DNA from: Terrabacter sp. Ter38
GTDB taxonomy: Bacteria > Actinomycetota > Actinomycetes > Actinomycetales > Dermatophilaceae
Reading direction: 5' to 3'
Length of the DNA: 64,000 bases
Assembly: GCF_024519435.1 (NCBI RefSeq)
Contig: NZ_JALJRZ010000002.1
Location: 434,001-498,000, forward strand
Every line of letters starts with the position of its first letter. Positions within the stretch are counted from its first letter, which is position 1. Position numbers and translations under genes: made by a program. This document shows positions 12,746 through 30,845 of the stretch, one piece after another. The notes below the pieces were generated by a model that searched no databases, was not told where the DNA came from, and was given only the letters and a program-made list of their open reading frames with translations.

Positions 12746-13453
12746 GTGTCTGTGGTGAGCGTGCTCTCCAGCGCCAAGACGATTCTGTCTCTGGCCCAGG
12801 CAGCTGGCCTTGCTCGCTCATCGACAGACCAGGCCTTGAAGAACCTCGAGACCCGGTTGCGGGGACTGGTCGAAGCTCCTCTTCATGAAGGCTTGAACCG
12901 CGTTAAGTGGGCGGCCCAAAGCAAGGAACCGCGCAGGTCCGAGTTGTTGCGCGAGGCGCGGTCAAAGTTGCTTGACGCGGTAGCACGTCCTGACATGCCG
13001 CCTCGCGCTGCAGCGGTCGCATGCGTTGCCGGCGCGGCGGTCGCTCGTGAGCTAGGCGATGAGGACGATGCGCGCACGTGGATGGCCAACGCTGTCGCCG
13101 CGTACGACCGTTGTGTCGCTACCGCTTATCAGGGTATGAACCGCACGGCACTGGTTGGCGATCGGCTGCAGCAGCCAGCGCTGGCGTGGCACCGGTCATT
13201 CCTGGTTTGGTGTGGCGCTAAGGGCTCATTCGCCAAGGCGGTGCTAGTTGGTTCCTCGTTGCAGTTCGGGAAAGATCAAAGTGAGCTCGCCGCGTTAACG
13301 AGAGAAGTGTCGGATGCTCACGCGTTCGCCCGTGAGCTAGGCGTGAACGCGGACGGGCACTCCTGCTCCGTCCGCGTCGTCCACTTCCGGGGGGTGGTAG
13401 TCAAGGCAAAGGTCATGACGCATGGGCTAGGAGCGGATCAATGCGACGCCTGA
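12746..13453 (+). CDS. Hypothetical helical protein next to nuclease-like gene
   Basis: A 235-residue soluble protein, mostly alpha-helical and Ala-rich (KTILSLAQAAGLARSS, EARSKLLDAVARPDMPPRAA, AAAVACVAGAAVARELGDED). I recognise no named domain. The region 'ARPDMPPRAAAV...RELGDEDDARTWMANAVAAYDRC' recalls tetratricopeptide-type helical pairs. The start GTG at 12746 (VSVVSVLSSAK) has GGAGG nine bases upstream, which decides against the longer in-frame opening from 12605. It lies 286 bases upstream of the PD-(D/E)XK-like gene in the same direction and inside the accessory region, so a joint role is possible but unproven. Confidence 0.65.
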   Translation: MSVVSVLSSAKTILSLAQAAGLARSSTDQALKNLETRLRGLVEAPLHEGLNRVKWAAQSKEPRRSELLREARSKLLDAVARPDMPPRAAAVACVAGAAVARELGDEDDARTWMANAVAAYDRCVATAYQGMNRTALVGDRLQQPALAWHRSFLVWCGAKGSFAKAVLVGSSLQFGKDQSELAALTREVSDAHAFARELGVNADGHSCSVRVVHFRGVVVKAKVMTHGLGADQCDA

Positions 13454-13739
13454 GCGCCGGCGCACTCCTGAAGACGCCGGGCCGCGGAAGCGTGGCGAAC
13501 GTCTACCTTGCGAGCGCGATAAACAAAGCAGCGCGGCCTAAGCGCGAGCGCCAGCCCGCGGCGGTGTGGCGCACTCACTGAGCTCTCCGAGTCAGGGGGA
13601 TCAGTGCGTCGGCGTAGCCATGGCGTCACCCATGGCGCGAGGTCCGATGCCACATCGCACGCCGCCGATAGCGGGCGCAGTACGCCATCGCGGCGGTACG
13701 GTCGGGGCTGTCACTTCCGAATTTCCGGACGGGAATCCT

Positions 13740-15203: not shown

Positions 15204-15386
15204 CACACGGGCGCTGATGCCGGCACACGAAGGGCAGCATTTCGTAGCCGTGCAGACCAATCTCGACGCTTCCTTACCGATCCGCGGCGGAAGCGACCCC
15301 ACCGGCCCCGACGCACGCCGAAGTTCCGCATCGACGCGTTGATGATGCCCGCCCCAGTCGGCCTCCTGCGGGTGCGCCAAGGCGGT

Positions 15387-16258
15387 TCAGACGCCGGCGA
15401 CGTAGGCGGTCAGGAAGTGGACGCCGTGTCGGTCGAGGTTGCCGCGGGCGCGGTCGTAGTGCTCGGTGGTGCGCGGATCGGCGTGCCGGGCCAGGATCTG
15501 CGCGTCCCGGAGAGGGACGCCGGCGTCGAGCGCGTTGGTGATGGCGGCGTGCCGTAGCGAGTGGGGGCTGATGTGCCGCGGGATGCCGGCGGTCTTCGCG
15601 ATCCGGGCGACCATTCGGTAGACGTCGCGTCGGTCGATCGGGTTGCCTGAGACCGGTCGCAGCACCAGCGGCCCGGACGTTCGTTGGCCGCGGCAGGCCT
15701 CGAGCGCTCGAAGCACGGGGACGGTGACCGGCATGGTCGCGGGCTTGTTGCCTTTGCCGACTAGGTGCAGGACGCGGTGTCCGCGGAGGGTATCGGCGTA
15801 GTCCTCGATGCGCACCGCGGCGGCTTCTGAGGCGCGGAGGGCGTTGATGCCGAGCAGGTAGGCCAGGGCGCCGTGGTGGACGGTGATGGTCGGGGCGACT
15901 TGGAGGAAACGGTCAGTTCGAGCCGGTCCAGTCCTTGGGTGCGGGACTCGTCGCGGTGGATCTTGGGTAGCCGCGCGTACACGGCTGGGTCGGCATTGAT
16001 GAGCCCGTCGATGTGGGCGAAGCGGAAGTAGCCGCGGATGGCGTGCATCATCGTGACGATGGACGAATCCATCAGGCCCCGCTCGCCGAGGTGACGGATG
16101 TAGAGCTCGATGTGTGCTCGCTGGATCCCGAGGAGCGGGTCGAGCCCGCTGATCTCGCACCACGCGAACCACTCCCGCAGCTGGAACGCGTAGAGGGAGT
16201 GGGTGCTCCCGGCGTAGCGCGCCAGGAAGGACACGGCGGCGAGTTGGGCCCTGGACAT
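15387..16258 (-). pseudogene. Frameshifted tyrosine recombinase/integrase
   Basis: The N-terminal part (from ATG 16258) is a SAM-like core-binding domain: MSRAQLAAVSFLARYAGSTH, LREWFAWCEISGLDPL and MMHAIRGYFRFAHIDGLI. After DRLELT, near 15910, the frame must shift by one base to continue as RFLQVAPTITVHHGALAYLL. The catalytic half has the first Arg in INALRASEAAAVRIEDY, HSLRHAAITN as the H-x-x-R box, ILARHADPRTTEHYDRA with the second His, and the nucleophile Tyr. All catalytic residues survive, so only the one-base deletion inactivates it, if it is real. The enzyme class integrates phages or genomic islands. No tRNA or att repeat adjoins it in this window. Confidence 0.8.
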
Positions 16259-16702
16259 GGTCGCGGGCTGGACGGTAGAAGGGTGGACGGGCCGGACATG
16301 AAGTCACCTCGCGCGGCGATGCTTCACTGACCTAGACCCCGCCCGCCGCTGGCGGCCAGGCGCATGGACCTATCGACGCTAGCCACCTGCCAGCGTTTCG
16401 GCCCGGTCTGCAGGCGGCGGAAAGACTCAGCATCACGCACCGACATATCGAGATTTTCGTCGACTGCCCGAGCCTCCGAGGTTTCGGGTCCTCGGCCGCC
16501 ATCGCGCAGACGCAGCGGTCCTTACCAGGCCGGTAGAGGACGCCTCTGATCTGTGGCAGGAGATGCATCGCCATGGGCGCGTCCGCAAGGGTTGTAGATC
16601 AGCGTTCTTGTGCGTGACGACGCGATCTCGGAGACCGCACAATGGAACGACGGGCTGGCCCGTGTTCCTGGCAAGGTAGCGACCGCGACACTGGGAGGCG
16701 AA
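16259..16702. other. Gap between recombinase and membrane protein
   Basis: A 444-base divergent gap with no gene I can support. Several short open frames exist on both strands but show no start signal or motif. It presumably contains promoters for both neighbours. Confidence 0.4.
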
Positions 16703-17359
16703 GTGACCATCCCTCAGCAAAGCTCGACAAATACTCACGAACCGCCACACTGGGCACTCGCGGTCGCCGCAGTTCTTACCGGGATCGCCGCTGGCCTCGT
16801 TGCCTACTTTCAGCTTTACCTTACGCAGGTCGGCAACGTAGTTATGGCAGCCTGTGGTGCTGTGGTCGGGCTCCTAGTCCTCTACGTGCTTTACCCCTCC
16901 AAGTCCCGTGGTGTTGCGAGTGTCCTAGTGGTCCTTGCCTTGGCTGCTGGATCGGCCGACTGGTACTACCTACGGGGGGCCCGATCACCAGACGGTGTCG
17001 CAACCATCGTCGGGGGGTGCCAGCCCTTCACGGTGTTCGCGCAGAATCGCTACGACCCCGTCGGCGCCGCCATACGTGCGGTCCCTCTTCCAGGGGGTCA
17101 AAAGGTTGGCGGTTTCAGCCCCAATGAACTGGTCACCGTTGACGGCTGGACCGAGACGCAGCCGGCCTACCCGCGCAACCGAGCACCGTGGAACAGCGAC
17201 ATCTGGTTCCATCTTGCCGATGGCAAGGGTTGGGTTTCCTTCGCCGGCTTGAGGCAGGCGCCGACCGCGAAGGATGACAACAACCACAGCCTTGAGGGCG
17301 GACCCCCAGTGCCGGCCACGGAGAGCTGCCGCGGAGTTTTGCGCATGCCAGCACTGTGA
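16703..17359 (+). CDS. Membrane protein with extracytoplasmic domain
   Basis: A 218-residue protein with about three closely spaced hydrophobic helices in residues 15-95 (LAVAAVLTGIAAGLVAYF, VVMAACGAVVGLLVLYVLY, ASVLVVLALAAGSADWYYL). A soluble C-terminal half of about 120 residues follows, with two cysteines (GGCQPF and ESCRGV). An SH3-like stretch, VTVDGWTETQPAYPRN with WNSDIWFHLADGKGWVSFAG, resembles bacterial SH3 domains outside the membrane. The start GTG at 16703 is chosen for the GGGAGG four bases upstream; an in-frame start at 16610 is possible but lacks such a site. Stand-alone gene just left of an IS110 element. Function unknown. Confidence 0.7.
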   Translation: MTIPQQSSTNTHEPPHWALAVAAVLTGIAAGLVAYFQLYLTQVGNVVMAACGAVVGLLVLYVLYPSKSRGVASVLVVLALAAGSADWYYLRGARSPDGVATIVGGCQPFTVFAQNRYDPVGAAIRAVPLPGGQKVGGFSPNELVTVDGWTETQPAYPRNRAPWNSDIWFHLADGKGWVSFAGLRQAPTAKDDNNHSLEGGPPVPATESCRGVLRMPAL

Positions 17360-17484
17360 AGGTCGCGCTTCAAGGCGTGTAAGCGAGCCCTTTCGACGCC
17401 CGTTATGGGCGTCCCTGCGGAGCGTAGTACCGAGCCTATGGTCCGTGCCCCCGCGGGGCTAGGCGGCGGAGTGACATGTCCGCG

Positions 17485-17726
17485 CTCGCGGCTGTTAGAC
17501 GATTGTCGGCAGGACCCGTGTCCGGCCAGACTCGGTTCCAGGTGCTCGGCGGGCTGCTCTTCTCGCGGCTGCCCACCAGGGTGATCGGTGTGGCTCTCTT
17601 TCGGTTTGCTGCCCGCCGGGCGCCGTGACGAGGCGTGGCTCCAGAGGGGACTGCCCTGCTCATAACAGCATTGCCCGCCTCGCGACTCCTTGCAGGTCCA
17701 CGATGAGACGAGGACGAGGTGGCGAC
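17485..17726 (+). ncRNA. Candidate bridge RNA region of IS110 copy 1
   Basis: This non-coding left end is conserved in blocks with the same part of copy 2: tagacgattg, ggccagactcggt, cgcggctgcccacc, ggtgtggctctctt, ccgtgacgaggcgtggctc and aggggactgccc. The blocks are separated by short variable segments. IS110 elements are known to make a structured bridge RNA from this end, whose two loops pair with target and donor DNA. Alternating conserved and variable blocks fit stems with programmable loops. RNA limits and strand are assumed to follow the transposase. Confidence 0.55.
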
Positions 17727-19022
17727 ATGGCGATGGTGTTCATCGGGGTCGATCCCCAGAAGCTGTCGGTGACGATCGAGGTCGTCGATGCCCACGAGAG
17801 AGTCGTGGCGACGGGACGGTTCCCCACTGACAAGGCCGGCTATGCCGCGATGCGCACACAGGTGCGTGCCTGCCCGGAGCGGGTTTGGGCGGTCGAGGGC
17901 AGCAATGGCGCTGGCCGGCCGCTGGCGCAGCGATTGCTCGCCGACGGGGAGCGCGTGGTCGACGTGCCGGCGAAGCTGTCGGCACGGGCGAGGTCGCTCG
18001 ACACGGGGCACAACCGCAAGACCGACGCCCACGACGCGCACGCCGTCGCGGTCGTCGCGGCACGCACGAAAGGTCTGCGGGTGCTGTCCTACGACGACGA
18101 GCTGGAGGCGCTGCGGATGCTGGCCGACCGCCGCGATGAGCTGTCCCGGGCGCGGGTGCAGACGGTCAACCGGTTACAGCGGTTGCTGTCCGAGCTGACC
18201 CCCGGGAAGGCGAAGAAGGACCTGACTCCCTTGCAGGCCAAAGCAATCCTCGCTTCGGTCCGCCCGCGGGACCTGGCCGGCAAGACCCGGCGGCGGCTCA
18301 CGGTCGAGCAGCTGACCGAGCTCGTCGCGGTCGACAAGAAGATCAAAGCGCTGACCAAAGAGCTCAATGCAATGGTGATCGCCCGCGGGTCGCAGCTGAT
18401 GGACCTGAGTGGCGTCGGTCCGGTCGTCGCGGCGCGGACGTTGGCCGACGTCGGTGACGTGGCCCGTTTCGCCGACCGGAACCGGTTCGCGTCCTGGACC
18501 GGCACCGCGCCGCTGGACGCGTCCTCCGGCGAGCAGAACCGACACCGGCTGTCGCGGGCCGGGAACCGGCGGATGAACCACATGATCCACATCGCTGCGA
18601 TCAGCCAGATCCGCTTGGACACCGACGGGCGCGCCTACTACCGGCGCAAGTGCGCCGAGGGCAAGAAGCCCCTCGAGGCGCTGCGATGCCTGAAGCGAAG
18701 GATCTCCGACGCGCTGTACGGCCAGCTCGTCACCGACGCCCGCGCGGCCGGGGCGGGCCCGGGAGGGCACTGCGGGGCGACTCAAGAATCCAGCGCGGCC
18801 GGCTCGAACCCGCTCACCAGCGCTTCGGATCAGCCACTTCCCGGACCCGCACCCACGACGCTACCCGCCGCCACAACCCCTGCGAAGCCCCGCCCGGGCT
18901 CGGCTCCTGAGCAGCCGCGCCGACGAGCCGGAGCCGTCAAGGTGCAGCGCCCCACCGGACGAACGACCTTGACGGCGACCAGCGCCGGCGCAGACTCCAA
19001 AGAGCCGGTCCCGGCACCTTGA
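17727..19022 (+). CDS. IS110-family transposase (DEDD recombinase), copy 1
   Basis: A 431-residue protein. The N-terminal RuvC-like DEDD domain shows FIGVDPQKLSVTIE (first Asp), WAVEGSNGAGRPLAQRLL (Glu) and HNRKTDAHDAHAVAVVAA (Asp pair). A helical linker follows (residues 125-215). The C-terminal Transposase_20 domain has the helix-hairpin-helix LMDLSGVGPVVAARTLADVG and the serine-bearing WTGTAPLDASSGEQNRHRLS, the proposed nucleophile region. The tail after about residue 350 is Pro/Ala-rich and differs from copy 2. The start ATG at 17727 follows a gaggt stretch and matches the start of copy 2. The enzyme recombines DNA guided by the bridge RNA encoded just upstream. Confidence 0.92.
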   Translation: MAMVFIGVDPQKLSVTIEVVDAHERVVATGRFPTDKAGYAAMRTQVRACPERVWAVEGSNGAGRPLAQRLLADGERVVDVPAKLSARARSLDTGHNRKTDAHDAHAVAVVAARTKGLRVLSYDDELEALRMLADRRDELSRARVQTVNRLQRLLSELTPGKAKKDLTPLQAKAILASVRPRDLAGKTRRRLTVEQLTELVAVDKKIKALTKELNAMVIARGSQLMDLSGVGPVVAARTLADVGDVARFADRNRFASWTGTAPLDASSGEQNRHRLSRAGNRRMNHMIHIAAISQIRLDTDGRAYYRRKCAEGKKPLEALRCLKRRISDALYGQLVTDARAAGAGPGGHCGATQESSAAGSNPLTSASDQPLPGPAPTTLPAATTPAKPRPGSAPEQPRRRAGAVKVQRPTGRTTLTATSAGADSKEPVPAP

Positions 19023-19244
19023 CAACAGAGGGGAGCCGAAGTGACGCACGTCGACGGGCCATACACCGGCGTTCCCTAGGGCCTGATCGGTGGACCTGGG
19101 TCCACTACGCGGTCGGTGTTGTAGCGAGGCCTTCCTCGACCCGAATACCGCTCATGGAGTGTGGCAGCTGTAATCCAAGCCGGGTCCACATCGGCGAGAT
19201 CCTGGGGATCTTTGCTGCGGCGACTTGGGACTGCCCCGGCGAGG

Positions 19245-20264
19245 TCACTCGGAAGTCCAGGTCTTCCCCACCGCCAGCACGTAGCGCCGCTGCATGCGCC
19301 CAGCCCACCGGGCGAGCTCCGGCTGTGCAGCGCACGCGTCGAAGAAGTCCTCGTGCGACCAGTAGGCGACCGGGGTGTGTGGCTGGCATGCTGCGATCGT
19401 CTGCACGACCTTCCTCGCGTTCCGGTCATCTTGGCGACCTAGAACGACCGCCAAGGTCCGATGCACCTCGTGCCGACGGCGCAGCCCGTGTCGGCGCAAC
19501 GAGTCCGTCAACAGGACGGAGCGCAGGAACTGGCTACCACCGGCGGCGACGATGCGGGTCATCGACCCCTCGTCCAGCCCGGCCGAGGCCAGCTGGGTGG
19601 CGTACCGCTCCCACGTGACCTTCTTGGCCGAGAACGTGTCGACGTACTTGACCTCGACCGAAACCAGCAGGCTCTCTCCTTCCTGCAGCCGCAGGTACGC
19701 GGCGATGTCGAAACCGGAGCGGTCCCCGGTGTGGAGGTCCCTGGGCGGGAACCACTCGGCCTCGATGCCGCCCAGGTCATGCGAGGGGGTCTGGGTGTCG
19801 GCAAGGTCTTCGAGGGAGGCCACCTGCTGTCCGGTCAACGCGGCGAAGACCCGGGCGGTCGCTGCCGGGTGTTCACGCAGTTCGCCTGCGATGCTGAAGG
19901 CCAGCGGCTGGCTGGAGAGCAGGTTCCGCCACAGGCGGTCGTCCTCGGCGAGGCCGCCGAGGGTCTGAAGCTGGGCCAGCCGGGCATCCGCGTAGGACTT
20001 CGCGGCCGGGGACATCAGGTTGAGCCCTTCAGCCTTCGCAGATCGCCCGTCGAACTCGGGTGCGAGGCAACTGCCCAGAACCGGGTAGCGCTTCGCTGCT
20101 CCACGGTGCGTAGGTGGCCCGGCGGGCCAGCCAAGTTCCTTCTCGCGCCAATCGGATTGGTGCGCTCGGTGCGCTGCCACGGCGGCGCTGCGGTCGCGCG
20201 GGGATTCGGACTCCATCGGGCCAGTGTGACCCACGTCCTTTGACGTCGGGCGACTATCGCTCAT
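19245..20264 (-). CDS. PD-(D/E)XK nuclease-like protein (PGN_0703-like)
   Basis: A soluble protein of about 339 residues. Near the centre it has the PD-(D/E)XK signature: GDRSGFDIAAYLRLQEGESL followed by LVSVEVKYVDTFSAKKVTWE, with Asp in GFDIA and E-x-K in VEVKY. This resembles the PGN_0703-type putative restriction endonuclease family found in many bacteria. The C-terminus (YWSHEDFFDACAAQPELARW) is conserved-looking and helical. The start is uncertain: ATG at 20264 or 20216, neither with a good ribosome site. It stands alone between IS110 copy 1 and the propeller gene, in the accessory region. A role in defence or repair is plausible, but nothing nearby completes a known restriction system. 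Confidence 0.7.
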   Translation of the reverse strand: MSDSRPTSKDVGHTGPMESESPRDRSAAVAAHRAHQSDWREKELGWPAGPPTHRGAAKRYPVLGSCLAPEFDGRSAKAEGLNLMSPAAKSYADARLAQLQTLGGLAEDDRLWRNLLSSQPLAFSIAGELREHPAATARVFAALTGQQVASLEDLADTQTPSHDLGGIEAEWFPPRDLHTGDRSGFDIAAYLRLQEGESLLVSVEVKYVDTFSAKKVTWERYATQLASAGLDEGSMTRIVAAGGSQFLRSVLLTDSLRRHGLRRRHEVHRTLAVVLGRQDDRNARKVVQTIAACQPHTPVAYWSHEDFFDACAAQPELARWAGRMQRRYVLAVGKTWTSE

Positions 20265-20469
20265 CGGCATCATGTGGGTGAGACGCACGCGCCCGGCAGG
20301 CGGCGAAAGGACGCGGCTCGCGTCAGCGGCGACGCGCACCACGAGGCCGGTGATGACCTAGACCACGGGGATTCCGCCGGTCCAAGACATTCTCCCGCCG
20401 CTGCAGTGTGCAGTCGCCACACTGGAGGGAGCGGGCTCCCCTTGAGCCCCAGGTTCGGAGGGACTCAGC

Positions 20470-22527
20470 ATGAGATGGCAACTCACCACCGCCCTCGTCC
20501 TGGCCACATCGATGGTGACCATCGGCTGCGTGGCTACACCGTCCGGCGCGGAACCGGGCGATCCCGGCGCCACGACGCTGGCCAGTGTCAACGCGTCGGG
20601 GCACGTCTCGGTCGGCACCCCTTCCGCTCCGGACCTCGCCGGTGCGATCGCGTTTTCGTCCACTGCCTCAGACCTTGTCACTGGCGACCGTAACGGGGTT
20701 GCCGACGTGTTCCTGTTCGGTCCCGGCTGGGGTGACAACTACTTCGCCCCGCCTTACTCCATGGAGCTTTACGGCGGGGAAGCATTCAACGGAGCGAGCA
20801 GCGAGCCGTCCCGGCCGAAGACGCTCGTTTTCTCGTCGAAGGCCAGCAACATCGTGACGCCGGACACCAATGGAGTTCAGGACGTCTTCGCCGACTGGGA
20901 TGAGGGTGATCCCCCCTCTCGGCTCAGTCAGTCAAGCGTGGGAGCTCAGGCCAACGGTCCGAGCAGCCACCCATCGGCGAGCGAGGGCAGCATCCAGTTC
21001 ACCGCCATCACGGTCGCGTTCCAGTCGGCGGCCACGAACTTGGTCTCGGGAGACACGAATGGCGCGACCGACGTCTTCGTGTCCCGCGCTGGCCGGTTGA
21101 CCCGGGCGAGTGTGACCAGTGACGAGCGTCAGGCCACCGGTTCAAGCACCGAGCCCAAGGTCACGAGTGACGGTCTGCTCGTGGTCTTCACGTCGTCCGC
21201 ACCGGACCTCGTGTCGGGCGACACGAATGGCGTGACCGACATCTTCGTCAGAGACCTGAAGGCCGGAACGACGAGCCGTGTTGACGTGTCCAGCTCGGGA
21301 GGCCAGGCGTCGCGTGCGAGCTCTCAACCAGACATCAGCGCCGACGGCAGGTTCGTGGCATTCACGTCCGCAGACGCCGGGCTGACAGGGGGCGCAACGG
21401 CATCTGCCGCCCAGATCTACGTGCGCGACCGTGTGGCCGGGACGACGAGGCGCGTCAGCGTGTCGACCTCCGGCGAACCCGGCAACGGCGCCTCATCGCA
21501 GCCGGCGATCAGTGGTGACGGACGATACGTCGCCTTCACGTCGTCCGCTTCGAACCTTGTACCGGCAGACACCAACGGGCTCACCGACGTCTTCTTGCAC
21601 GATCTGAGCACCGGCACCACCACACGCGAGAGCGTCTCCTCGAGCGGGGCGCAGTCCAGAAGCAGAAGCCACTCACCCGACCTGGGGTACGGCTCGATGC
21701 TCGCGTTCCTCTCTGAACCGCACGGCGGGCTCGTGCCGGGGGACACCAGTCAGACTGTCCTGCTGCGTCGACCGGACGCCCCTGCTACCACCTTCGGCGA
21801 CTTCGATAGGGATGGCCTGTCGGACGTCATCGCGCGCACGGGCAAGGGTGAACTGCGCCTCTTCCGTGGCTCAGGAGCCGGGCTCGCCCCCTCGACCCGC
21901 ATCGGAGCCTCCGGTTGGAATGCCATGGCAGACATCACCAGGCACGGAGACTTCAACTCCGACGGACGTGAGGACGTCATTGCGAGTGAGAAATCAACCG
22001 GAGCCCTCTGGCTGTACCCCGGCACCAGAACCTATCTAGCCCCCAGGCTTCAGATCGGGGCCCGTGGCTGGAACGGCATGCGTGAGGTCACCGCTGTCGG
22101 CGACTTCACCCGCGACGGCAAACCCGACCTCGTGGCTGTCCAGGCGAACACCGGCGACCTCTACCTCTACCCCGGTCGAGGCACCGGCTTGGAGAAACGA
22201 CGCATCATCGGCCATGGTGGCTGGAACGGGATGGACGAACTCATCGGAATCGGAGACCCCAACGCCGATGGATACGCCGACCTCATCGCTCGACAACGGT
22301 CAACTGGTGAGCTCTGGCTCTACCCCGGCACCTCCACGGCGACCAGGTTCTTGCATCGCGAACTGCTCGAGGGAGGCTGGAACAGCAAACGAGCCCTCGC
22401 AGCAGTGGGCGACTTCGACCGCGACGGCGACCCCGACATCGCCGGCATCCGAAACTCGACCTCTCGCCTCGAGGTCGGACCGGCCACAGTGGCAGGCTTC
22501 ACCTCCACCGTGAGCGCAATTCTTTAA
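20470..22527 (+). CDS. Secreted PD40/FG-GAP beta-propeller protein (intact paralogue)
   Basis: A 685-residue exported protein. The N-terminus MRWQLTTALVLATSMVTIGC is a signal peptide with a possible but imperfect lipobox (TIGC). Residues about 45-420 carry PD40-like blades with phrases such as SSASNLVPADTNGLTDVF, ISGDGRYVAFTS and VRDLKAGTTSRVDVSSSG. Residues 435-680 are five FG-GAP/VCBS blades (GDFDRDGLSDVIART, LWLYPGTRTYLAPRLQIGA, GWNGMREVTAVGDF). The ribosome site GGAGGG precedes the ATG at 20470. Same domain order and length as the frameshifted gene at 10089-12187, on the opposite strand 8 kb away. Calcium-binding DxDxDG-like loops (DFDRDGDPD) suggest an extracellular calcium-stabilised propeller. 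The ligand is unknown. Confidence 0.85.
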   Translation: MRWQLTTALVLATSMVTIGCVATPSGAEPGDPGATTLASVNASGHVSVGTPSAPDLAGAIAFSSTASDLVTGDRNGVADVFLFGPGWGDNYFAPPYSMELYGGEAFNGASSEPSRPKTLVFSSKASNIVTPDTNGVQDVFADWDEGDPPSRLSQSSVGAQANGPSSHPSASEGSIQFTAITVAFQSAATNLVSGDTNGATDVFVSRAGRLTRASVTSDERQATGSSTEPKVTSDGLLVVFTSSAPDLVSGDTNGVTDIFVRDLKAGTTSRVDVSSSGGQASRASSQPDISADGRFVAFTSADAGLTGGATASAAQIYVRDRVAGTTRRVSVSTSGEPGNGASSQPAISGDGRYVAFTSSASNLVPADTNGLTDVFLHDLSTGTTTRESVSSSGAQSRSRSHSPDLGYGSMLAFLSEPHGGLVPGDTSQTVLLRRPDAPATTFGDFDRDGLSDVIARTGKGELRLFRGSGAGLAPSTRIGASGWNAMADITRHGDFNSDGREDVIASEKSTGALWLYPGTRTYLAPRLQIGARGWNGMREVTAVGDFTRDGKPDLVAVQANTGDLYLYPGRGTGLEKRRIIGHGGWNGMDELIGIGDPNADGYADLIARQRSTGELWLYPGTSTATRFLHRELLEGGWNSKRALAAVGDFDRDGDPDIAGIRNSTSRLEVGPATVAGFTSTVSAIL

Positions 22528-22720
22528 CTGACTTCGACAACCCGCGGGCTCAAGGGCTACGGCCCAACCCGCACGGGGTAGGTCGGCTCGCGGCGAAGTG
22601 ACGCACTTCGAACGCGAGGGAACGATTAGCGGAAGAGGTCGGTAGCCAGAGACTTTCCCGTTAAGTCGGGCTTGCCGGATTTCGAGGTGTAGTCCGGCGA
22701 CGATCCCTACGCTGACGTCC

Positions 22721-23958
22721 ATGACGTGGCATCAGGGGCGAGGCGTGCGAGCGGGTGTTTGGGGGCTGCTGATTACTGCGGTGCTGGCCGGCTGCACGGC
22801 GGCGCCATCGGCTCCGTCTGCTTCCAGCGCCCCAGCGGGGCTGCCGCCGACCAGCGCCGGCCAGACGACCCCGCAAGTCACGACGACCGTGACCGTGCCG
22901 GTCGCCGCGGAACCCGCGCGCACTTGCGCCTTGGCCTTCGCCCTTGTTGGCGCCGGCAGGCCGCAGCAGGCTCTGAAGCAGCTCGAGGACGCCAGCAGTC
23001 CACAAGTCCTTGGCGATCCCGTGTGTCGCGATCTGACGACCCGGGCAAGAGCTGCCGTCTCGGCATCCGCCGCCGCCGCTAAACATGTCGCTACGCCGCA
23101 GCCTCGCGTTCAGGTAACAAGGACGCCACCAACGCTGCGGCGAACGAGTACGCGGCGCACCTAGAGGGGCACCCAGAAGAGCTCGAGCGAGTCGTGCCGG
23201 CCATCTTGAAGGTAGTCGCGCAGACGGAGCCGCTGGTGGTGCTCGCCGCTCTTACGCACGTGCTTTGCGCGACCGCGGCCAAGGTGCAGCAGCGACCGAT
23301 AGGAGGAGGGCCCTCGGGGTGCGTGGCGTTCACCGGGTCGTTTGTGAACCCTTCGTTCATGACGGTCGTCGACGTGCGCGACAAGGAGGACAAGCCGTTG
23401 CAGCCGCCCGAGATCACGACGGTCGACGGGAGGTCCTACCTCGACTTCGACGCGAGAATGGACTCTTTCTATATGGGTGATACGCGGCCACGCATGTGGA
23501 TCGTCAAGCCCAATGACCCTGCGGATTCCGAGGCCCTGGCCAGCGATCTGAACCACATGCTCCTAGATCGGGTCGATAGGCCGGGCGCCCCAGTCGCGCA
23601 CATCAAGGTTCACGACGTCATCTCGGAACCCGCGGGCGACTCCACGGCGGCGCGCGGGGTCCTGCGGATTGTGAACTACGTGTATGCCGACCGGGTGGAT
23701 ATCTTCTACCCGGACCCCGAGAAGGAGAAGGCCCTCCTCGCTGCGAAGACGCTGGCGGAGAAGCTCATTATCCGAATGCGAGAGACCGAAGTCGACAAGT
23801 TGGCACGCGGCGAGCGGCGAGAGTTTCTCGTCAGCGCGGTAGACGGACCCCGTGCCCTGCTTTCCTCTCTGCGGGCACTAGCCCTGCAGGACCAAGAACT
23901 ACTTGGCGCGTGGCGCGATGACTGGGGCGGTCTTGGTGAGGAAGTCGCCGCCGGCTGA
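22721..23958 (+). pseudogene. Lipoprotein-type gene split by a one-base frameshift
   Basis: The first part (22721 to about 23095) encodes a lipoprotein: MTWHQGRGVRAGVWGLLITA followed by VLAGCTAAPSAPS with the lipobox LAGC, then a helical stretch ALVGAGRPQQALKQLEDASS. The reading then needs the -1 frame, which has no start codon between the TAA at 23080 and a GTG at 23194 yet is clearly coding: NKDATNAAANEYAAHLEGHP and ELERVVPAILKVVAQTEPL. It continues to the stop at 23958 with MDSFYMGDTRPRMWIVKPND and DRVDIFYPDPEKEKALLAAK. Joined, the protein is about 412 residues, probably anchored outside the membrane. If the break is real, the downstream half could only be made from GTG 23194. No known domain recognised. 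Confidence 0.6.
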
Positions 23959-24166
23959 GCCACAGGCTTGTCGCAGCGCGGCAGGAAGCCCTCCATTCAC
24001 CAACGGCTATGCTCGCGACCCCGGGTCCACCGGACGTCTCGGCGGCCGGGCATCCGCGAGTACGCGACGTCGACACTGACGATGGTCGGCGCCGAATCCT
24101 CGCTTCAATGGACGCTGGATGCCGCCTCCGGCTGTCGCCAGTCACTGCCTCGGTCCGGACGTTCGA

Positions 24167-24396
24167 CTCGCGGCTGCTAGACGATTGCCGTCAGGATCGG
24201 TGTCTGGCCAGACTCGGTCCAGGTGTCCGGCGGGAGGCTCTCTTCGCGGCTGCCCACCTCGTGGGGTGTGGCTCTCTTCCGGTCTGCAGTCCGTCGGGCA
24301 CCGTGACGAGGCGTGGCTCGAAAGGGGACTGCCCAGCTCGTAGCAGCATTGCCCACCTCGCCGTCCCTGTCGGTTCGAGGCATGCAGGAGAACGTC
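24167..24396 (+). ncRNA. Candidate bridge RNA region of IS110 copy 2
   Basis: A 230-base non-coding left end sharing ordered blocks with copy 1 (see 17485-17726), including ccgtgacgaggcgtggctc near 24302-24320 and aggggactgccc just after. Segments between blocks differ, notably after cgcggctgcccacc, where copy 1 reads agggtgatc and copy 2 reads tcgtgg. Such differences are where target- or donor-binding loops would be expected. Structure not computed. Confidence 0.5.
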
Positions 24397-25581
24397 ATGG
24401 CGAAAGTGGTCATCGGGCTCGATCCCCACAAGCTGTCCGCGACGCTCGAGGTCGTTGACGACCGCGAGCGGTTGCTCGGTTCGGGCCGGTTCGGCACCGA
24501 CCAGGCGGGCTACGCCGCGATGCGGGCCTACGCGAAGGCGTGGCCGGAGCGGGTCTGGGCGGTCGAGGGCAGCAACGGTGCTGGCCGTCCTTTGGCGCAG
24601 CGGCTCCTCGAGGCCGGCGAGTACGTGGTGGACGTCCCGGCGAAGCTCGCCGCTCGGGTGCGGCTGTTCGACACCGGCCACAACCGCAAGACCGACGCGC
24701 GGGACGCGTACTCGATCGCGGTCGTCGCCGTGCGCACCGCCGGGCTTCGGGTGCTGCAGGTCGACGGTGAGCTCGAGGCGCTGCGGATGCTCGCCGACCG
24801 CCGTGAGGCGCTGTCCCACCGGCGGGTGCAGACTGTCAACCGGCTGCAGGCGTTGCTCGCGGAACTCCTTCCGGGACAGGCGAAGAAGGACATCCCCGCG
24901 GGGCAGGCCAAGGCCCTGCTCGCCTCTGTCCGCCCCCGCGACATCGCCGGGAAGACCCGTCGACGGATCGCCGCCGAAGAGCTCGCCGAGCTGGTCGCCC
25001 TCGATGCGAAGATCAAGAAGTCCAGCGCCGAGCTCAAGGCCATCGTCCTGGCCCGCGGGTCGCGTCTGATGGACCTGCGCGGTATCGGACCGGTCGTCGC
25101 GGCCCGCACACTGGCCGACGTCGGTGACGTGGCTAGGTTCGCCGACCGGAACCGGTTCGCGTCCTGGACCGGCACCGCGCCCTTGGACGCGTCCTCCGGC
25201 GAGCAGGACCGGCACCGGCTGTCGCGGGCGGGAGACCGGCGGATGAACCACATGATCCACATCGCCGCGATCAGCCAGATCCGTCTCGACAGCGACGGGC
25301 GGCCCTACTACTGGCGCAAGCGTGCAGAGGGCAAGAAGCCCCTCGAGGCGCTCCGGTGCTTGAAGCGCAGGATCTCCGACGCCCTGTTTCGCCAGCTGAT
25401 GGCTGATGCCCACAGGGCGGCTGGAGCGGGTCCGGGAGGGCACTGCGGGGCGACTCAAGAATCCAGCGCGGCCGGCTCACACCGCCTACCGGCACTTCGG
25501 TCAGCCACTTCCCGGACCCGCGCGACCGACGCTACGCCCGGCAGCTACCCCACGAAAGACCGACCGCCAAAGAGCCGTTGA
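24397..25581 (+). CDS. IS110-family transposase (DEDD recombinase), copy 2
   Basis: A 394-residue transposase closely related to copy 1. It has GLDPHKLSATLEVVDDRE (first Asp), VWAVEGSNGAGRPLAQRLLE (Glu), NRKTDARDAYSIAVVAVR (Asp pair), the HhH LMDLRGIGPVVAARTLADVG and WTGTAPLDASSGEQDRHRLS. All catalytic positions are present, so it may be active. The start ATG at 24397 has GGAG nine bases upstream; the longer frame from 24313 runs through the conserved non-coding end and is rejected. The C-terminal tail is 37 residues shorter than in copy 1. Confidence 0.92.
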   Translation: MAKVVIGLDPHKLSATLEVVDDRERLLGSGRFGTDQAGYAAMRAYAKAWPERVWAVEGSNGAGRPLAQRLLEAGEYVVDVPAKLAARVRLFDTGHNRKTDARDAYSIAVVAVRTAGLRVLQVDGELEALRMLADRREALSHRRVQTVNRLQALLAELLPGQAKKDIPAGQAKALLASVRPRDIAGKTRRRIAAEELAELVALDAKIKKSSAELKAIVLARGSRLMDLRGIGPVVAARTLADVGDVARFADRNRFASWTGTAPLDASSGEQDRHRLSRAGDRRMNHMIHIAAISQIRLDSDGRPYYWRKRAEGKKPLEALRCLKRRISDALFRQLMADAHRAAGAGPGGHCGATQESSAAGSHRLPALRSATSRTRATDATPGSYPTKDRPPKSR

Positions 25582-25857
25582 AGTCACCGCTTGACAACAG
25601 AAGGGAGCCGGTATGACGCAACTCGTGATGCATCTAGTCTCTGGGGTTGACGTGATCGTCTCGGATCGGACCGCTTCCCAAGCGGATCGGGACGCCACCG
25701 TGCTGGAATTCAGCTGTTTCTGGGTCCGCGCGGTGACACCGGCAGGAAGGACCCGGCGCCACGCGTGCCATTACCAACTCCTGTACGTCCGCGGCTCTAC
25801 GCTGCGGTGTGCCTCACGGCACGCAAGACAGAACGAGATGAACAGGGGAAGTCGATC

Positions 25858-26292
25858 ATGAATGCGAATGTCGTTGGGTTGGGCTGCGCACTACTGCTGA
25901 TGGCCGGTCTAGGCGGCTGCTCGGCGTCCGCTATGGCCGGCACGGCTCGGGCAGGCGTCACCACGCAAGCGCACTCGACGGACGCGGAACCCGTATCCGC
26001 GATCGACGCGAGCATTCCGGCCTCTCCAGCCGGTGACCGTGCGAACAATGGCCAAGTCAAGGATCCGAGCGAGGTCACGGCGTCGGAAGCATCCGCTGCC
26101 ATGGCGTCCCAGAGCGTGCAACGTGTCCTGATCGGTCTCTTGTGGAACGACCTCAGCAACGATAAACGGACGGATGCGTGCCAGGTCTGGAAGGCCTCGC
26201 CGGACCGGGCTGTGGAGCGGTTTGCGATCCACGACAAGGCCTTGCTGGAACGTGATGTGCTCGTCGCCTTCTTCACCGCTCACTGCGCATGA
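25858..26292 (+). CDS. Hypothetical lipoprotein
   Basis: A 144-residue exported protein. The signal MNANVVGLGCALLLMAGLGG ends in the lipobox LGGC. A low-complexity Ala/Ser/Thr linker follows (to about residue 75), then a short globular C-terminal part, SVQRVLIGLLWNDLSNDKR and ACQVWKASPDRAVERF, ending FFTAHCA. Two Cys in the domain (DACQ, AHC) could form a disulphide. The start ATG at 25858 has aggggaa about ten bases upstream. No homologous domain recognised; probably cell-surface anchored. Confidence 0.7.
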   Translation: MNANVVGLGCALLLMAGLGGCSASAMAGTARAGVTTQAHSTDAEPVSAIDASIPASPAGDRANNGQVKDPSEVTASEASAAMASQSVQRVLIGLLWNDLSNDKRTDACQVWKASPDRAVERFAIHDKALLERDVLVAFFTAHCA

Positions 26293-26394
26293 GCCCGACA
26301 AGGCACCAGTTCGCCGTGTGACGACGGGATCGACCAGCCGCTAGAGGGCCGGGCGAGTTGCATGCCTGTGTGGGATCTCGACAAACGAGCGTGG

Positions 26395-26940
26395 GGTGAC
26401 GGCTGTATCTCGCCGAGGAGAAGCATTCGGAGGCGGACGTTCTCGCGGTTTCGGTAGCCGCGTGCGCCCCGACGGTGCAGCTCGATGTCGCCGCTAGATG
26501 GCGTCGGCTTCCGCAGTTGTTCGCGCCGCTGGTGTCGAAGTAGCCGAGGAACTCGATGGGTCGCTGCTCCAGAGTGCGTCCCAGGCGGGCGACCTCGCGG
26601 ATCGGACACGTGGTGAAGGACTCGAGGATCTTCTCGGCGATCGCCCTTCCGGCGGCGTGGATGTCCTGGTGGTACGGAGCAGATCTGCTGCGCGCAGGCC
26701 AAGCCACTTAACCTCGGGATGATCCTCACGTTCGGCAGCGCCGGGACGGTGCGGACCCTCTCGGGCGGCGAACGCCAGCTCGAGCTGGCCCGTGCCTCCG
26801 GTCGGCGAGGTCCTCCGGTCCGGGCGCGGAGGATGTTGCGGATCCGATGGAGGGGGCCCTCTCGCCATGGGCTCTGGCCGCTGTCGTTCTGCTGCCCTCG
26901 TCGACGCACGTCGTCGACGACCCACGTGGCGACGTGAGGT
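26395..26940 (-). pseudogene. ISL3-family transposase remnant
   Basis: Pieces of one transposase lie in different leftward frames. From about 26935: HVATWVVDDVRRRGQND and REGPLHRIRNILRAR. Then QDIHAAGRAIAEKILESFTT, REVARLGRTLEQRPIEFLGY and FDTSGANN. Finally IELHRRGARGYRNRENVRLR near 26450. This order (VVDDVRRR, LYRIRN-like, AEKLL.SF, FDT...NG..EAI, IELHRRIARGFRNR) is the C-terminal half of ISL3-type transposases. At least three frame changes and the missing N-terminal half show it is a long-decayed fragment. Confidence 0.7.
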
Positions 26941-27314
26941 CGACTTGAGGCGGGGTGACCCTGTTGGCGTGTGTTTCGTTCCCAGCGGCCGCCTCACCGA
27001 GTCGGGCGCTCGCCTGCACCGCACCCCGGCTCTCCACGAGGCCGTGCCGAAGGTCGAGCCGGTAGGCGAGTTGGGGGAGGGCGCTTCTTACGCCCGTTTC
27101 CCGATCACGAGATGTCGGGGAGGTCAGGGCCGACGGTGGTCCGGCGCTGACCGGGCGCTGGGGGCGACTCCCGGAACCAAGTGTGGATTCCGTTCGAGAC
27201 AGATTTCGGCAAATGGGACATCTAGATCTCGACTTGGCTCTACCTTTGCCATCGGCAACTCGTGTGCCAACCCGCGCCCAGTAGAAGCGCGGCGTTTTCA
27301 CGTCAGGGGTGGAT
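26941..27314. other. Gap upstream of PrsW module
   Basis: No supportable gene. Part of it probably continues the decayed insertion sequence. The right end contains the ribosome site (aggggt) of the PrsW-like gene and presumably its promoter. Confidence 0.4.
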
Positions 27315-28349
27315 ATGCGGTTCTGCGGCGACTGTGGACAGCTGCTTGTTCACGCACGTCCGTTCTGTAGTCACTGCGGGGCGCGGGTCTCGGAGTGGAG
27401 TAGGGCTGGCGAGGAGCCGTTGACCTCCAGGTCGGCGCTTCGGTCCCGACACGGCGAAGCGGGGAACGCGACGGCGGGTGACCCGCTGGCAGCTCTGGGT
27501 GAGCAACTTCGATCGGTCCCCTGGCGGCAGCTACTGCCGCTGCGCTCTTGGTGGGGGGATGGAGGATGGCACCGCGGTCAGGTCGGCCTGTTTTGTCTGT
27601 TTGTGATCGCGCCGTTCTTCTTGCTTCGCCTGACCGCGGACGATCAGGAAATAGATCGAATCGCGTGGGGTTTCGCCGGGTACTTCGCGCTCCTTTGGTT
27701 TGTCGTCCTGTACGGCCTCATCCGGCCCGAGCGGATCGACTGGTTGGTGCTACTGCGGGTGGCATTGGTGACGGCTGTGGTGGGCACCGCCCTTGCAATC
27801 TTCCTCGAGTCCCGCATGGCTCCGGACGACTCCAATTTCGTGAAGATGGTCGTCGGAGTGGGCCTCCCTGAAGAGTTGGCGAAGGCTTTGGGGGTATACC
27901 TGTTCTTGTTCCGAGCCCGCAGGGTGTTCTCCAGCCGCAGCTACATTTTCGCCGGCGCGGTCTCCGGCCTGGCCTTCGGCGCTGCGGAAGCTGTCGGCTA
28001 CACACAGAAGTACGCCGACTTGGCCGAGTACCTCTGGCCGAGTTCCTACACCGCTCTCATCACGTGGCGGCTACTGACTGACTCCCTGCTGCACGCCCTC
28101 ATGGCGGCCATCTGCGCCTACTTCCTCGGTCTCGCGGCGCGGTACCCGGCTTCCCGATGGCCTTTGATCATCTCGGGGCTCGGCCTTGCCGCGTTGCTGC
28201 ACGGCGCGTATGACGCGCTGTCCTCAGGCTGGCTGGGCACCGTCGTTGCAGCCGTCATCGTCTTCATCTTCGCCGGCTACGTCCGGACCGGCGACCAAAT
28301 CACCCAACGACTCGATGTCAGCGCGCTCGGTGAAGCGTCGCGACGGTGA
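27315..28349 (+). CDS. PrsW-family membrane protease with N-terminal zinc ribbon
   Basis: A 344-residue protein. Residues 1-30 form a zinc ribbon (MRFCGDCGQLL and PFCSHCGARV). After a 60-residue linker come about eight membrane helices. Within them are the PrsW/CAAX-like intramembrane protease motifs: GLPEELAKALGVY (paired Glu), AFGAAEAVGYTQKY (E-x-x-x), DSLLHALMAAICAYFLG and LAALLHGAYDALSSG (His and Asp). PrsW of Bacillus cleaves the anti-sigma factor RsiW at site 1. The start ATG at 27315 has AGGGG five bases upstream; an in-frame GTG at 27309 overlaps that site. First gene of a tight trio with 28361 and 29191. Its substrate could be one of the two membrane neighbours. Confidence 0.85.
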   Translation: MRFCGDCGQLLVHARPFCSHCGARVSEWSRAGEEPLTSRSALRSRHGEAGNATAGDPLAALGEQLRSVPWRQLLPLRSWWGDGGWHRGQVGLFCLFVIAPFFLLRLTADDQEIDRIAWGFAGYFALLWFVVLYGLIRPERIDWLVLLRVALVTAVVGTALAIFLESRMAPDDSNFVKMVVGVGLPEELAKALGVYLFLFRARRVFSSRSYIFAGAVSGLAFGAAEAVGYTQKYADLAEYLWPSSYTALITWRLLTDSLLHALMAAICAYFLGLAARYPASRWPLIISGLGLAALLHGAYDALSSGWLGTVVAAVIVFIFAGYVRTGDQITQRLDVSALGEASRR

Positions 28350-28360
28350 GAGGAACCCAC

Positions 28361-29188
28361 ATGGAAATCACGACCTGCCCCTCCTGCGGAGGCGAGGTCC
28401 CCTCCGCGCGCTTCTGTGCACGCTGCGGCAAGCCGTTGACGATCCCGAGCGAACCACCTGTTTCGACTCCAGCGGGCGCGCCAGTGGACACTCAACTAGC
28501 GGCCCGAGTGGAGGCAGGCGCTCCCCAAGCCATCACCGCCTCATCACCGGCGCCCACGGTCGGCGATGCTCAGACCCAATCCCTCCCGGTGCGGGACACG
28601 CAGATGCTGAGCGGACTCCGGGTCCGGGCCGATGTGTCGCCCGCAGCTGGCACTGCAAGGGTGGCGGCGTCCGTGGACGGAGGCCTTACCCCTACAGCCA
28701 TTGTGGACTCAGAACTCAACTCGGTCCCGGACGTCAAAAGAGCCGACGCGCCAAGTCGAGTGGGTTACAACCGACGTATTGGAATCGCGGCGATTACGGT
28801 TGCCCTGCTGGCGGGGGCTGCATACCTAGTCCTGGGCATCGGCGGCGAGTCGCACACCTTGATGGGCGACCTGACCCTCAGAGCCAGCAGCGACCTCTCG
28901 CCCGGCGACAGCTGCTCCGGGCAGGGCGGGTACAGCGACATCCACGATGGAACACAAGTGGTCGTCGAGGACGAAACCGGCAAGACCCTTGCCACCAGCG
29001 CTCTCGGCCCCGGGACCTTCGACGGCACGTCATGCGTCTTTAGCTTCAGCTTGGCAGAGGTGCCGAAGGCGGCCTACTACCGAGTCGAAGGCGCACACCG
29101 TGGCGTGCTTCAGTACTCCTACCAAGACATGGTCAGCGCCAACTGGTCGGTGCATCTCACCTTGGGCGACAGCTCAGGGACCAACTAG
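28361..29188 (+). CDS. Zinc-ribbon, single-pass membrane protein
   Basis: A 275-residue protein. The N-terminal zinc ribbon is MEITTCPSCGGEVP with RFCARCGKPL (residues 1-30). A long Ala/Pro/Thr-rich cytosolic linker (30-145) leads to one transmembrane helix, IGIAAITVALLAGAAYLVLG, near residues 147-166. An outside domain of about 110 residues follows, with SCSGQGGYSDIHDGTQVVVE and GTSCVFSFSLAEVP; its two Cys could pair. The start ATG at 28361 has gagagg about seven bases upstream and lies 11 bases after the stop of the PrsW gene. Topology (ribbon inside, sensor outside) resembles an anti-sigma-like or signal-transducing protein, a plausible PrsW substrate. That is inference. Confidence 0.75.
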   Translation: MEITTCPSCGGEVPSARFCARCGKPLTIPSEPPVSTPAGAPVDTQLAARVEAGAPQAITASSPAPTVGDAQTQSLPVRDTQMLSGLRVRADVSPAAGTARVAASVDGGLTPTAIVDSELNSVPDVKRADAPSRVGYNRRIGIAAITVALLAGAAYLVLGIGGESHTLMGDLTLRASSDLSPGDSCSGQGGYSDIHDGTQVVVEDETGKTLATSALGPGTFDGTSCVFSFSLAEVPKAAYYRVEGAHRGVLQYSYQDMVSANWSVHLTLGDSSGTN

Positions 29189-29190
29189 CC

Positions 29191-30396
29191 ATGCCACTCA
29201 CATTGAGACGCTCCCGCCAAGGTCGACATCGGCCAGACCCCCCAGAAGAAGACACCACGGTGGCTTCCTTGCTCGACGACTTCGGGGTCCAGGCCCCCGG
29301 CGCGTTGGAGGACCCACTCGCCTCCCGCGAGAAGTGGAACACGTCGGTGCCCGCAACGGTTACCCGGAGCTCTCGGCTGCGCGGGATGGTTCGCACACAC
29401 CGCTTTGCGGCTGCGGCGGCCGTACTTCTCCTTACGGCCGGCGCGGCGACACTCTTCGTCCCCATGGCTGGCGGCTCATGCGCCAACGGCTTCAGATCCC
29501 TAACAGCGCGGCCGGCGACTCAGCCTACCGACACGTCCCCACAACCCGATCCGGCGACAGCCGAGGCCGACGATAAGGCCATTGCAGACGCGCAAGGAGC
29601 GATCAATCAGGCCAACTCCGCCGTCGCGGATGCACAGGCCGCGCAGGACGCCGCCGCCAGCCTCCAGTCCAAGGCCGACGACGCGGCATCCGCGGCATCC
29701 GCGGCTGACAGCGCTAGTGGCACGCCCTCAGTCGACCTCGAGCAGGACCAGAACGCCCTTGAGTGGGACAAGCAGGAGGTCCAGAGCGCCAACGACGCGC
29801 TCACTTCCGCCCAAGAGGGCCTGCAGTCCGCGAAGGACACCCTGACCACTGACCAACAACTGGGGCTCGACACGAGTTACGACACGCAGTCGATCGCCGA
29901 CGCAAAGGCGCAGATTACCCAGGCGCAGTCGGACCTGAAGACTGCACAGACAACCGTGGACGCCGACACTGCGAAGATCGCCAAGGACCAGAAGAGCGTC
30001 GCGAGCGCCGCTGCCGCCTCAAAGACGGCCACAGCAAACGCCGAATCCCTCGCGAAGAGGGCTGAAGACGCCCAGACCAAGGCGGACAGCCAACTCTCCG
30101 GCGCGCAGGAACGCCAGAGTTCCGCGCAAGCCGACCTCAGCTCAGCCCAAAGCACCCAGGCGGCGCACCAGGCCGCTGACTTGAACGCGGCCGCGGTGTG
30201 GCACCACGAACACCGGCTTGCAGTCTTCGCCGTCGATGCAAAGAACTCCACAATGACGGACTGTCGGCTGGCGGCCACGAAGAACGCCGGCGTTGGCGCC
30301 GGCCTGGCCGTCAGCGGAACAGTCCTTCTCCTCGTGGATGTCGTTTCCACTCGGCGGCGCCGGGTCGCCCTGCGCCGAACCGACCCCCAAGAGTGA
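29191..30396 (+). CDS. Coiled-coil protein with two membrane segments
   Basis: A 401-residue protein, starting two bases after the previous stop. It has an N-terminal charged cytosolic stretch (1-68), a first transmembrane helix FAAAAAVLLLTAGAATLFVP (about 71-90), and a 220-residue Ala/Gln/Asp-rich coiled coil (about 115-335) with repeats such as AQSDLKTAQTTVDADTAKIA. A second helix, AGVGAGLAVSGTVLLLVDVV, near residues 366-385 precedes an Arg-rich end. The coil would lie outside the membrane as a hairpin or rod held at both ends. No enzymatic motif. The third gene of the PrsW trio, it could be a structural or sensing partner. Confidence 0.75.
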   Translation: MPLTLRRSRQGRHRPDPPEEDTTVASLLDDFGVQAPGALEDPLASREKWNTSVPATVTRSSRLRGMVRTHRFAAAAAVLLLTAGAATLFVPMAGGSCANGFRSLTARPATQPTDTSPQPDPATAEADDKAIADAQGAINQANSAVADAQAAQDAAASLQSKADDAASAASAADSASGTPSVDLEQDQNALEWDKQEVQSANDALTSAQEGLQSAKDTLTTDQQLGLDTSYDTQSIADAKAQITQAQSDLKTAQTTVDADTAKIAKDQKSVASAAAASKTATANAESLAKRAEDAQTKADSQLSGAQERQSSAQADLSSAQSTQAAHQAADLNAAAVWHHEHRLAVFAVDAKNSTMTDCRLAATKNAGVGAGLAVSGTVLLLVDVVSTRRRRVALRRTDPQE

Positions 30397-30789
30397 CACG
30401 AGGAGCGACATGTTCCCGACCCCATCCTCCCGGCGACAACTCACAAGAGTCGCCACCTTCGGGACTGCGACGTGCCTCCGAAAACACAAATGGCCCGCCT
30501 GGCCGGTCTCGCCGCGGGAAGCACGATCGGTCGGTCACCGCTGGAAGCAGGCCGGGAGCGCGTTCGCGCGATCATCTTGGCAGAGCGCATCCCGGGGACT
30601 GAGAATTCCTATCATGAGAGTGCCCGCCACCCGTTTGGTCTGACGGCCCCCAACAGGGCGGTAAGAGAATCGGCGCACGATCCGAAGACTGGGTATATGA
30701 AGCCCGATGGTCGCGCCTGCGTCGCGGCGGTAGGACACGGCCGCTTCGCGGCGGAATGGGCTACGTGTGGTCGGCCCACGGATCGTGGC
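30397..30789. other. Gap at the right edge of the accessory region
   Basis: No gene supported. Positions 30739-30758 repeat 5181-5200 with one mismatch. The stretch separates the PrsW trio from the convergent carbohydrate operon and may mark the accessory-core junction. Confidence 0.4.
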
Positions 30790-30829
30790 AGAGCGGCCGG
30801 GGGACCTCTTGTCGCACTCCGGCCGCTCT
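30790..30829 (-). terminator. Terminator hairpin after GH94-GH3-GH35 operon
   Basis: An 11-bp perfect stem, agagcggccgg (30790-30800) with ccggccgctct (30819-30829), and an 18-base spacer. It lies 17 bases beyond the stop of the leftward GH35 gene. Confidence 0.6.
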
Positions 30830-30845
30830 CTCCAGCCTGGAACAC

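Follow-up and report, generated by a model that had tools for sequence, protein, structure and literature searches.

To our knowledge, only one substrate of a PrsW protease is established, the anti-sigma factor RsiW of the PrsW–RsiW–sigmaW system of Bacillus subtilis, which lies in the membrane with its N-terminus inside and its C-terminus outside (N-in/C-out). PrsW proteins carry an FxxxE motif. EExxK, HxxxD and an additional histidine are described for them in the accessible part of PMC4602095, and the accessible part of Zhang et al. (2012, PMC3482391) reports PrsW domains fused to zinc ribbons and other signalling domains, suggested to act as signalling peptidases. We analyzed a 64,000-nt stretch (the window) of the Terrabacter sp. 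Ter38 genome (4.83 Mb, 54 contigs), which contains three consecutive genes, P1, P2 and P3, for a zinc-ribbon PrsW protease, a zinc-ribbon protein with one transmembrane (TM) helix and a coiled-coil membrane protein (Table 1). The locus resembles the Bacillus system in having a protease whose motifs include EExxK, HxxxD and the extra histidine, a candidate N-in/C-out single-pass partner and an orientation towards the envelope. It differs in that no sigma or anti-sigma family was found among the scanned neighbours (part of those in the window and in G007, a genome of another family that carries a second copy), in the ribbon on the protease and in the ribbon and coiled-coil partners. P1 also reaches no more than 27 bits with the PrsW equivalog model NF033739, a long way short of the required 225, and is not assigned to the RsiW type by it. 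With the proteins of Zhang et al. the locus shares the PrsW–zinc ribbon fusion, for which signal-responsive cleavage was proposed, whereas the accessible part of that article describes neither a single-pass ribbon partner nor a coiled-coil partner nor a defence-type location. An earlier note on this DNA held that no system of this composition is described: this stands for the assembly of the trio, which was not found in the open-licence literature on PrsW with zinc ribbon, NERD, anti-phage and operon contexts (most subscription papers lie outside this scope), but not for the ribbon-PrsW itself, which is already known from 2012 (PMC3482391).

We found all three families again in G007, arranged as in the window, which is beyond chance. 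In the window the open reading frames lie head to tail with gaps of 11 bases (28349/28361) and 2 bases (29188/29191), as had been noted earlier, while in G007 successive genes overlap by 4 bases (the start codons of the P1 and P2 homologues there are our choice). Within the 248 genomes of the order, P3 occurs only in the window's own genome and in G007, each time adjoining P1 and P2. Because the order is kept in two families, with 4-bp overlaps in G007, and because P3 is always found beside P1 and P2, we regard the trio as a joint unit. Our tentative reading, to which we give slightly less than an even chance, is that it was acquired horizontally as one functional unit and serves as a signalling-peptidase module: P3 would relay an outside cue, upon which P1 would cut P2. 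P1 would be an active intramembrane protease of PrsW type that holds its catalytic residues close to the outer membrane face. P2 would most likely be its substrate; its ribbon, with a long flexible tail, would lie in the cytosol, and a small cysteine-pair domain would lie outside. P3 would project outward as a coiled-coil hairpin, perhaps clamped by a disulfide at its base, sensing an envelope event and transmitting it to P1 or P2. Upon this cue P1 would clip P2 at the outer juxtamembrane segment, and a second cut would then free the ribbon-bearing tail as the putative output. We propose a signalling peptidase because the catalytic motifs are invariant in three ribbon-PrsW proteins and because of the charge pattern of the loops, and Zhang et al. 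put forward this role for zinc-ribbon PrsW proteins; P2 is proposed as partner or substrate because a one-TM protein is encoded by the next gene in three of the four members seen of this PrsW subfamily. With a PrsW protease, its probable substrate and a likely sensor packed into one compact, conserved gene set, a PrsW pathway without sigma factor would become open to direct tests. Plausible ribosome-binding sites precede P1 and P2 when the sequence is read directly, and the start of P3, placed 2 bases past the P2 stop, suggests translational coupling of these two genes. Promoter and terminator scans gave results close to those of shuffles, and the Rfam and tRNA scans of the window gave no matches.

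The membership of P1 in the PrsW family is clear (PF13367, 82.8 bits with a cut-off of 23.5, E 3.1e-23). The N-terminal CxxC...CxxC pairs that the earlier note had pointed out in P1 and P2 are present and their four cysteines are kept in the aligned homologues, though the Pfam zinc-ribbon models stay below their cut-offs (best E 1.7e-4 for P1 and 1.1e-3 for P2); P1 is a PrsW–zinc ribbon fusion as defined by Zhang et al., with predicted zinc binding. Its catalytic motifs are invariant across the ribbon-PrsW proteins of the window, G007 and G004 (a genome of a third family), so that the Glu, His and Asp residues on which the earlier assignment depended are in place. TM helices were called by hydropathy and oriented by the charge pattern of the loops. 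This gave six TM segments in P1, one in P2 and two in P3, in agreement with the earlier statement that all three are membrane proteins. For P1 the number is smaller than in a Deinococcus relative, for which eight are called; from the homologues and the loop charges we infer about eight TM helices with both ends inside, which would place the catalytic residues near the outer membrane face. The C-terminus lies 21 residues past the last called TM segment and carries none of the toxin domains that characterize PrsW-dependent polymorphic toxins, and no toxin family was found among the scanned neighbours. An N-terminal ribbon was seen in 3 of 63 PrsW loci examined, namely those of the window, G007 and G004, a figure from a non-random set made up of the 30 best-scoring loci, 13 loci from five chosen genomes, in which the three ribbon-PrsW proteins were deliberately included, and 20 hand-picked second paralogues. 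For this set the PrsW proteins were chosen by their motifs, since a profile built on three sequences had failed to detect many of the ordinary ones.

P2 carries its ribbon cysteines at C6, C9, C19 and C22. The charge pattern fits an N-in protein, with about 115 residues outside that contain the cysteine pair C185/C225, and this pair is kept in all five aligned sequences. The predicted N-in/C-out topology agrees with what had been proposed earlier, namely ribbons on the cytosolic side of both P1 and P2 and a single-pass ribbon protein with an outside domain next to the PrsW protease. The outer half of the TM helix together with the residues that follow is a candidate cleavage region. TcaA-like proteins of Firmicutes also combine a cytosolic zinc ribbon, a single TM helix and extracytoplasmic domains; judged by this general description, P2 differs from them in its ectodomain, a cysteine-pair domain of about 100 residues without Pfam match. 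No Pfam family matched the P2 ectodomain at E 1 or better. The best Foldseek match of the P2 model is a weak beta-sandwich hit (CnaB domain, E 0.03), and we dropped a fold assignment on this basis, the model being of low confidence.

The charge pattern of P3 likewise fits an N-in protein, with TM helices at residues 72–90 and 367–385 and about 275 residues outside. Its AlphaFold model (mean predicted local distance difference test score, pLDDT, 68.7) contains two long helices at 121–224 and 229–364, of about 100 and 135 residues and mostly with pLDDT above 80. A short turn between them and Foldseek matches to antiparallel hairpins (e.g. 3g67) suggest that the coiled coil is probably such a hairpin, of about 15 nm. 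The earlier picture of a 220-residue external coiled coil held by two helices is right as regards the two TM helices and the long helices outside, while the helical part is slightly longer. A more specific fold claim was abandoned, as the matches are generic coiled coils. The only two cysteines of P3 bracket the coiled coil, one directly after the first and one directly before the second TM helix, and the G007 homologue also has exactly two, C35 and C282, at corresponding places, which would be consistent with a disulfide at the base.

Next, we considered the distribution of relatives. With a threshold of E 1e-10, P1-like proteins were found in three of the order's 248 genomes (the window's own, G007 and G004); within the G007 family they occur in 1 of 13 genomes, whereas the PrsW family as such is common (181 of 248). 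P2 likewise has matches in three genomes of the order (E 1e-5 or better): in its own, in G007 and, as a short match to the ectodomain, in G201. Searches across the class (at least 2 of 394 genomes at E 1e-25, own and G004) and the phylum (at least 1 of 396 at E 1e-12, own) scored at most five candidates per genome and may overstate the rarity. Between the window and G007 the identity is 48% for P1, 34% for P2 and 32% for P3, so the two partners appear to diverge faster than the protease. The earlier note had suggested a gene-neighbourhood search for co-occurrence: the trio is linked in two of the three ribbon-PrsW genomes, and the PrsW gene of G004 is solitary. The G004 protein (L004 1279-2523) contains short repeats rich in Pro, Glu and Leu after its last TM segment. 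The Deinococcus relative of P1, encoded on a plasmid, has 34% identity and no ribbon; its gene is followed, with a 4-base ATGA overlap, by that of a one-TM protein. The small ectodomain of the latter is of another kind and reaches 23.4 bits against DUF4177, just under the cut-off of 25. On Deinococcus plasmid pDrdI (L018 4884-7114) a PrsW protein, a one-TM DUF4177-like protein and a third protein are encoded in tandem, the third apparently cut by an IS6 element. Scans of IMG/VR with P2 and with alignments of P1, P2 and P3 gave no relative. We dropped the idea of a phage- or plasmid-borne trio, as phage records contain no match to P1 or P2 and plasmids none to P3 or its homologue. A Lachnospiraceae locus from a metagenome-assembled genome, the one locus retrieved by a contig scan, matched at the level of the ribbon only and was not used.

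Table 1. Features of the three-gene locus, its variable region and related plasmid loci (window coordinates unless a locus name is given; aa, amino acids)
Feature	Position	Strand	Basis
P1, zinc-ribbon PrsW-family intramembrane protease, 344 aa	27315..28349	+	PF13367, homologue alignment, hydropathy
P1 predicted zinc ribbon CxxC-N10-CxxC, residues 4-21 (C4, C7, C18, C21)	27324..27377	+	four Cys invariant in three homologues
P1 catalytic motifs EExxK 186-190, FxxxE 221-225, H260, HxxxD 296-300	27870..28214	+	motif read, alignment
P2, N-terminal zinc ribbon, ~115-residue linker, one TM, extracytoplasmic domain, 275 aa	28361..29188	+	hydropathy, alignments
P2 TM helix, residues 142-160	28784..28840	+	hydropathy
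P3, TM1, long extracytoplasmic coiled coil, TM2, 401 aa	29191..30396	+	hydropathy, AlphaFold model, Foldseek
P3 segment from C97 to C358, the only Cys of the protein, which bracket the coiled coil	29479..30264	+	alignment, model, hydropathy
Variable region holding the module, ~18.3 kb	12569..30845	.	flank comparison with G606
P2-ectodomain small proteins near type I-E cas or a Pycsar pair	L016, L140, L015, L142, L143, L139

Several observations weigh against a signalling-peptidase module. No sigma or anti-sigma family was seen among the scanned neighbours, in line with the earlier statement that no sigma factor is adjacent; linkage to such genes need not hold for such systems and its absence is a weak test. 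Gene adjacency alone would be no proof that P1 cleaves P2. Residues 151–169 of P2, around the candidate cleavage region, are identical at 10 of 19 positions, and the best window of this kind is not above shuffles (p 0.21), for which reason we rejected juxtamembrane conservation as a cleavage signature. The single-sequence structure model of P2 is poor (mean pLDDT 52), and in that of P3, also made from a single sequence, the TM segments are not helical. In G004 the ribbon-PrsW protein occurs without P2 or P3, and the two complete modules found (window and G007) are too few for a covariation analysis.

The genomic setting was analyzed by comparison with congeners. None of 8 congeners (one of them 74% complete) carries P1, which shows that the module is accessory. 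In G606 the flanks of the variable region are present (9,964–12,568 at 94% and 30,846–35,200 at 91%) and enclose 7.3 kb of largely unrelated DNA; this is the only congener in which the left flank was seen, the stretches fetched from the other five covering the right border. Similarity to all six begins at about 30,750–30,860, adjoining a GH35 gene. The variable region contains two IS110 transposases, a phage-type integrase, a PD-(D/E)XK nuclease and an FG-GAP/PD40 gene. The genomic setting of the module suggests a role in conflict or in relation to phages. At the GH35-side border, defence-type genes occur in three of the six congeners: G605 has a DRT-class reverse transcriptase (a full-length match to RT_UG33, E 1e-181) and also a weak match to a TIR-like effector (2.5e-5), G609 has QatA- and QatC-like genes (~5e-66) followed about 6 kb further in by TIR-TM (8e-58), and G606 has a STAND-type NTPase fused to a kinase (mad6 kinase match, 1.4e-28) beside a GHKL kinase. 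Five of the ten scanned border genes of these three match PADLOC at 1e-20 or better, one of them by its kinase domain only, versus 0 of 23 ordinary-looking genes in G607, G608 (whose contig ends 5 kb away) and G611. In this genus the GH35-side site resembles a defence hotspot (L117 4668-10332, L119 4733-7733, L121 8585-15227).

In G007 a NERD-domain gene (E 7.7e-16; L013 10534-11400) overlaps the 3' end of P3 by 4 bases, and its product could be an effector of the module; no NERD gene follows the copy in the window. About 7 kb separate the start of the G007 module from the gene of a type IV methyl-directed restriction enzyme (1152 bits in PADLOC), which is accompanied by genes of an Mrr-type nuclease and of a DNA methyltransferase. 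Around the module two of nine scanned genes, a subset of the neighbours, match PADLOC at E 1e-30 or better, versus three or four of 117 control genes from eight other 20-kb stretches of the genome (three models: mad3 in two genes and two PDC-S48 models in one each). This co-location is at most suggestive. Relatives of the P2 ectodomain were found on 12 Streptomyces plasmid records; the three aligned ones (e.g. WP_331756958.1) share the cysteine pair with P2 and have one TM helix near the N-terminus, unlike P2 they have no ribbon, and no PrsW protein is annotated nearby in any of the 12 records (the gene table is incomplete), a point against the earlier interpretation. Named defence genes lie within 5–6 kb of the ectodomain gene in 6 of the 12 records: five of these have type I-E cas genes and one has a Pycsar pair and a restriction endonuclease. 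Of the other six records, one has a DNA methyltransferase and five have none of these. Grouped by eye, the records form six plasmid neighbourhoods, three with named defence genes. As control we used 250 kb from five of the same plasmids, chosen arbitrarily; of the 236 features there, none bears a CRISPR-Cas, restriction-modification, CBASS or Pycsar name. This DNA does hold toxin-immunity genes, helicases and a TIGR02391 protein, and the comparison rests on product names and is post hoc. A hand calculation, equally post hoc, gave p ~0.01 (three events, ~68/318 kb).

These locations bear most directly on a possible though doubtful alternative, in which the module is an undescribed envelope-surveillance system against phages, of abortive or alarm type, that acts without sigma factor. 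Attachment of a phage, injection or damage at the lysis stage would be sensed by the P3 coiled coil and a beta-type P2 ectodomain; P1 would then become active, and the effect inside the cell would come from the ribbon tail or, in the case of G007, from the NERD protein. The border genes in three of six congeners, the restriction genes and the operonic NERD gene of G007 and the cas and Pycsar genes on plasmids argue for it, a support that is locational. The gene content argues against it: P1 and P2 have no match in PADLOC-DB 2.0.0 and P3 matches only coiled-coil parts of JetC, the window's copy contains no known effector, and three other genes of its variable region have no PADLOC match either. 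With three or four matching genes in its control, the co-location in G007 is weak when taken alone, and the plasmid comparison shares the limits given above. If it were true, membrane-protease signalling would join the known ways by which bacteria detect phages at the cell surface, and regulated intramembrane proteolysis would serve as an immune switch without sigma factor. We hold it to be just as questionable that the trio responds to envelope stress unrelated to phages, such as antimicrobial peptides or wall damage, and is niche cargo of a variable region, working like PrsW/RsiW but with the anti-sigma factor replaced by the ribbon protein. According to the accessible part of PMC3498285 the founding PrsW acts on RsiW in an envelope-stress pathway; moreover, two of the partners have predicted extracytoplasmic domains and the variable region also carries the FG-GAP/PD40 gene. 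The missing sigma and anti-sigma families and the low equivalog score of P1 speak against this role.

The N-terminal ribbons of P1 and P2, both predicted to be cytosolic, would also fit a static membrane complex, in which the paired ribbons join the two proteins while P1 would work on P3 or process further exported proteins; PrsW domains have indeed also been proposed for toxin export and processing in the accessible part of PMC3482391. This is unlikely in our view, as P1 has no toxin domain and the scanned neighbours include no toxin family. That the three genes are chance neighbours which travel together in a mobile region and share no function would agree with the two IS110 transposases and the integrase and with the lone P1 of G004, but is very improbable given that order and tight spacing are kept in another family at 32–48% identity, with 4-bp overlaps there.

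Besides the module, we noted further features of the variable region. The PD-(D/E)XK nuclease (19245-20342, minus strand) matches PF20796 at E 1.4e-55 and REase-ARP at E 3.1e-10, has no PADLOC match and is possibly part of another conflict system. Two diverged IS110 elements (17485-19053 and 24167-25625), about 6.7 kb apart and 77–93% identical in the longer aligned stretches, flank this nuclease gene, the FG-GAP gene and two unassigned genes.

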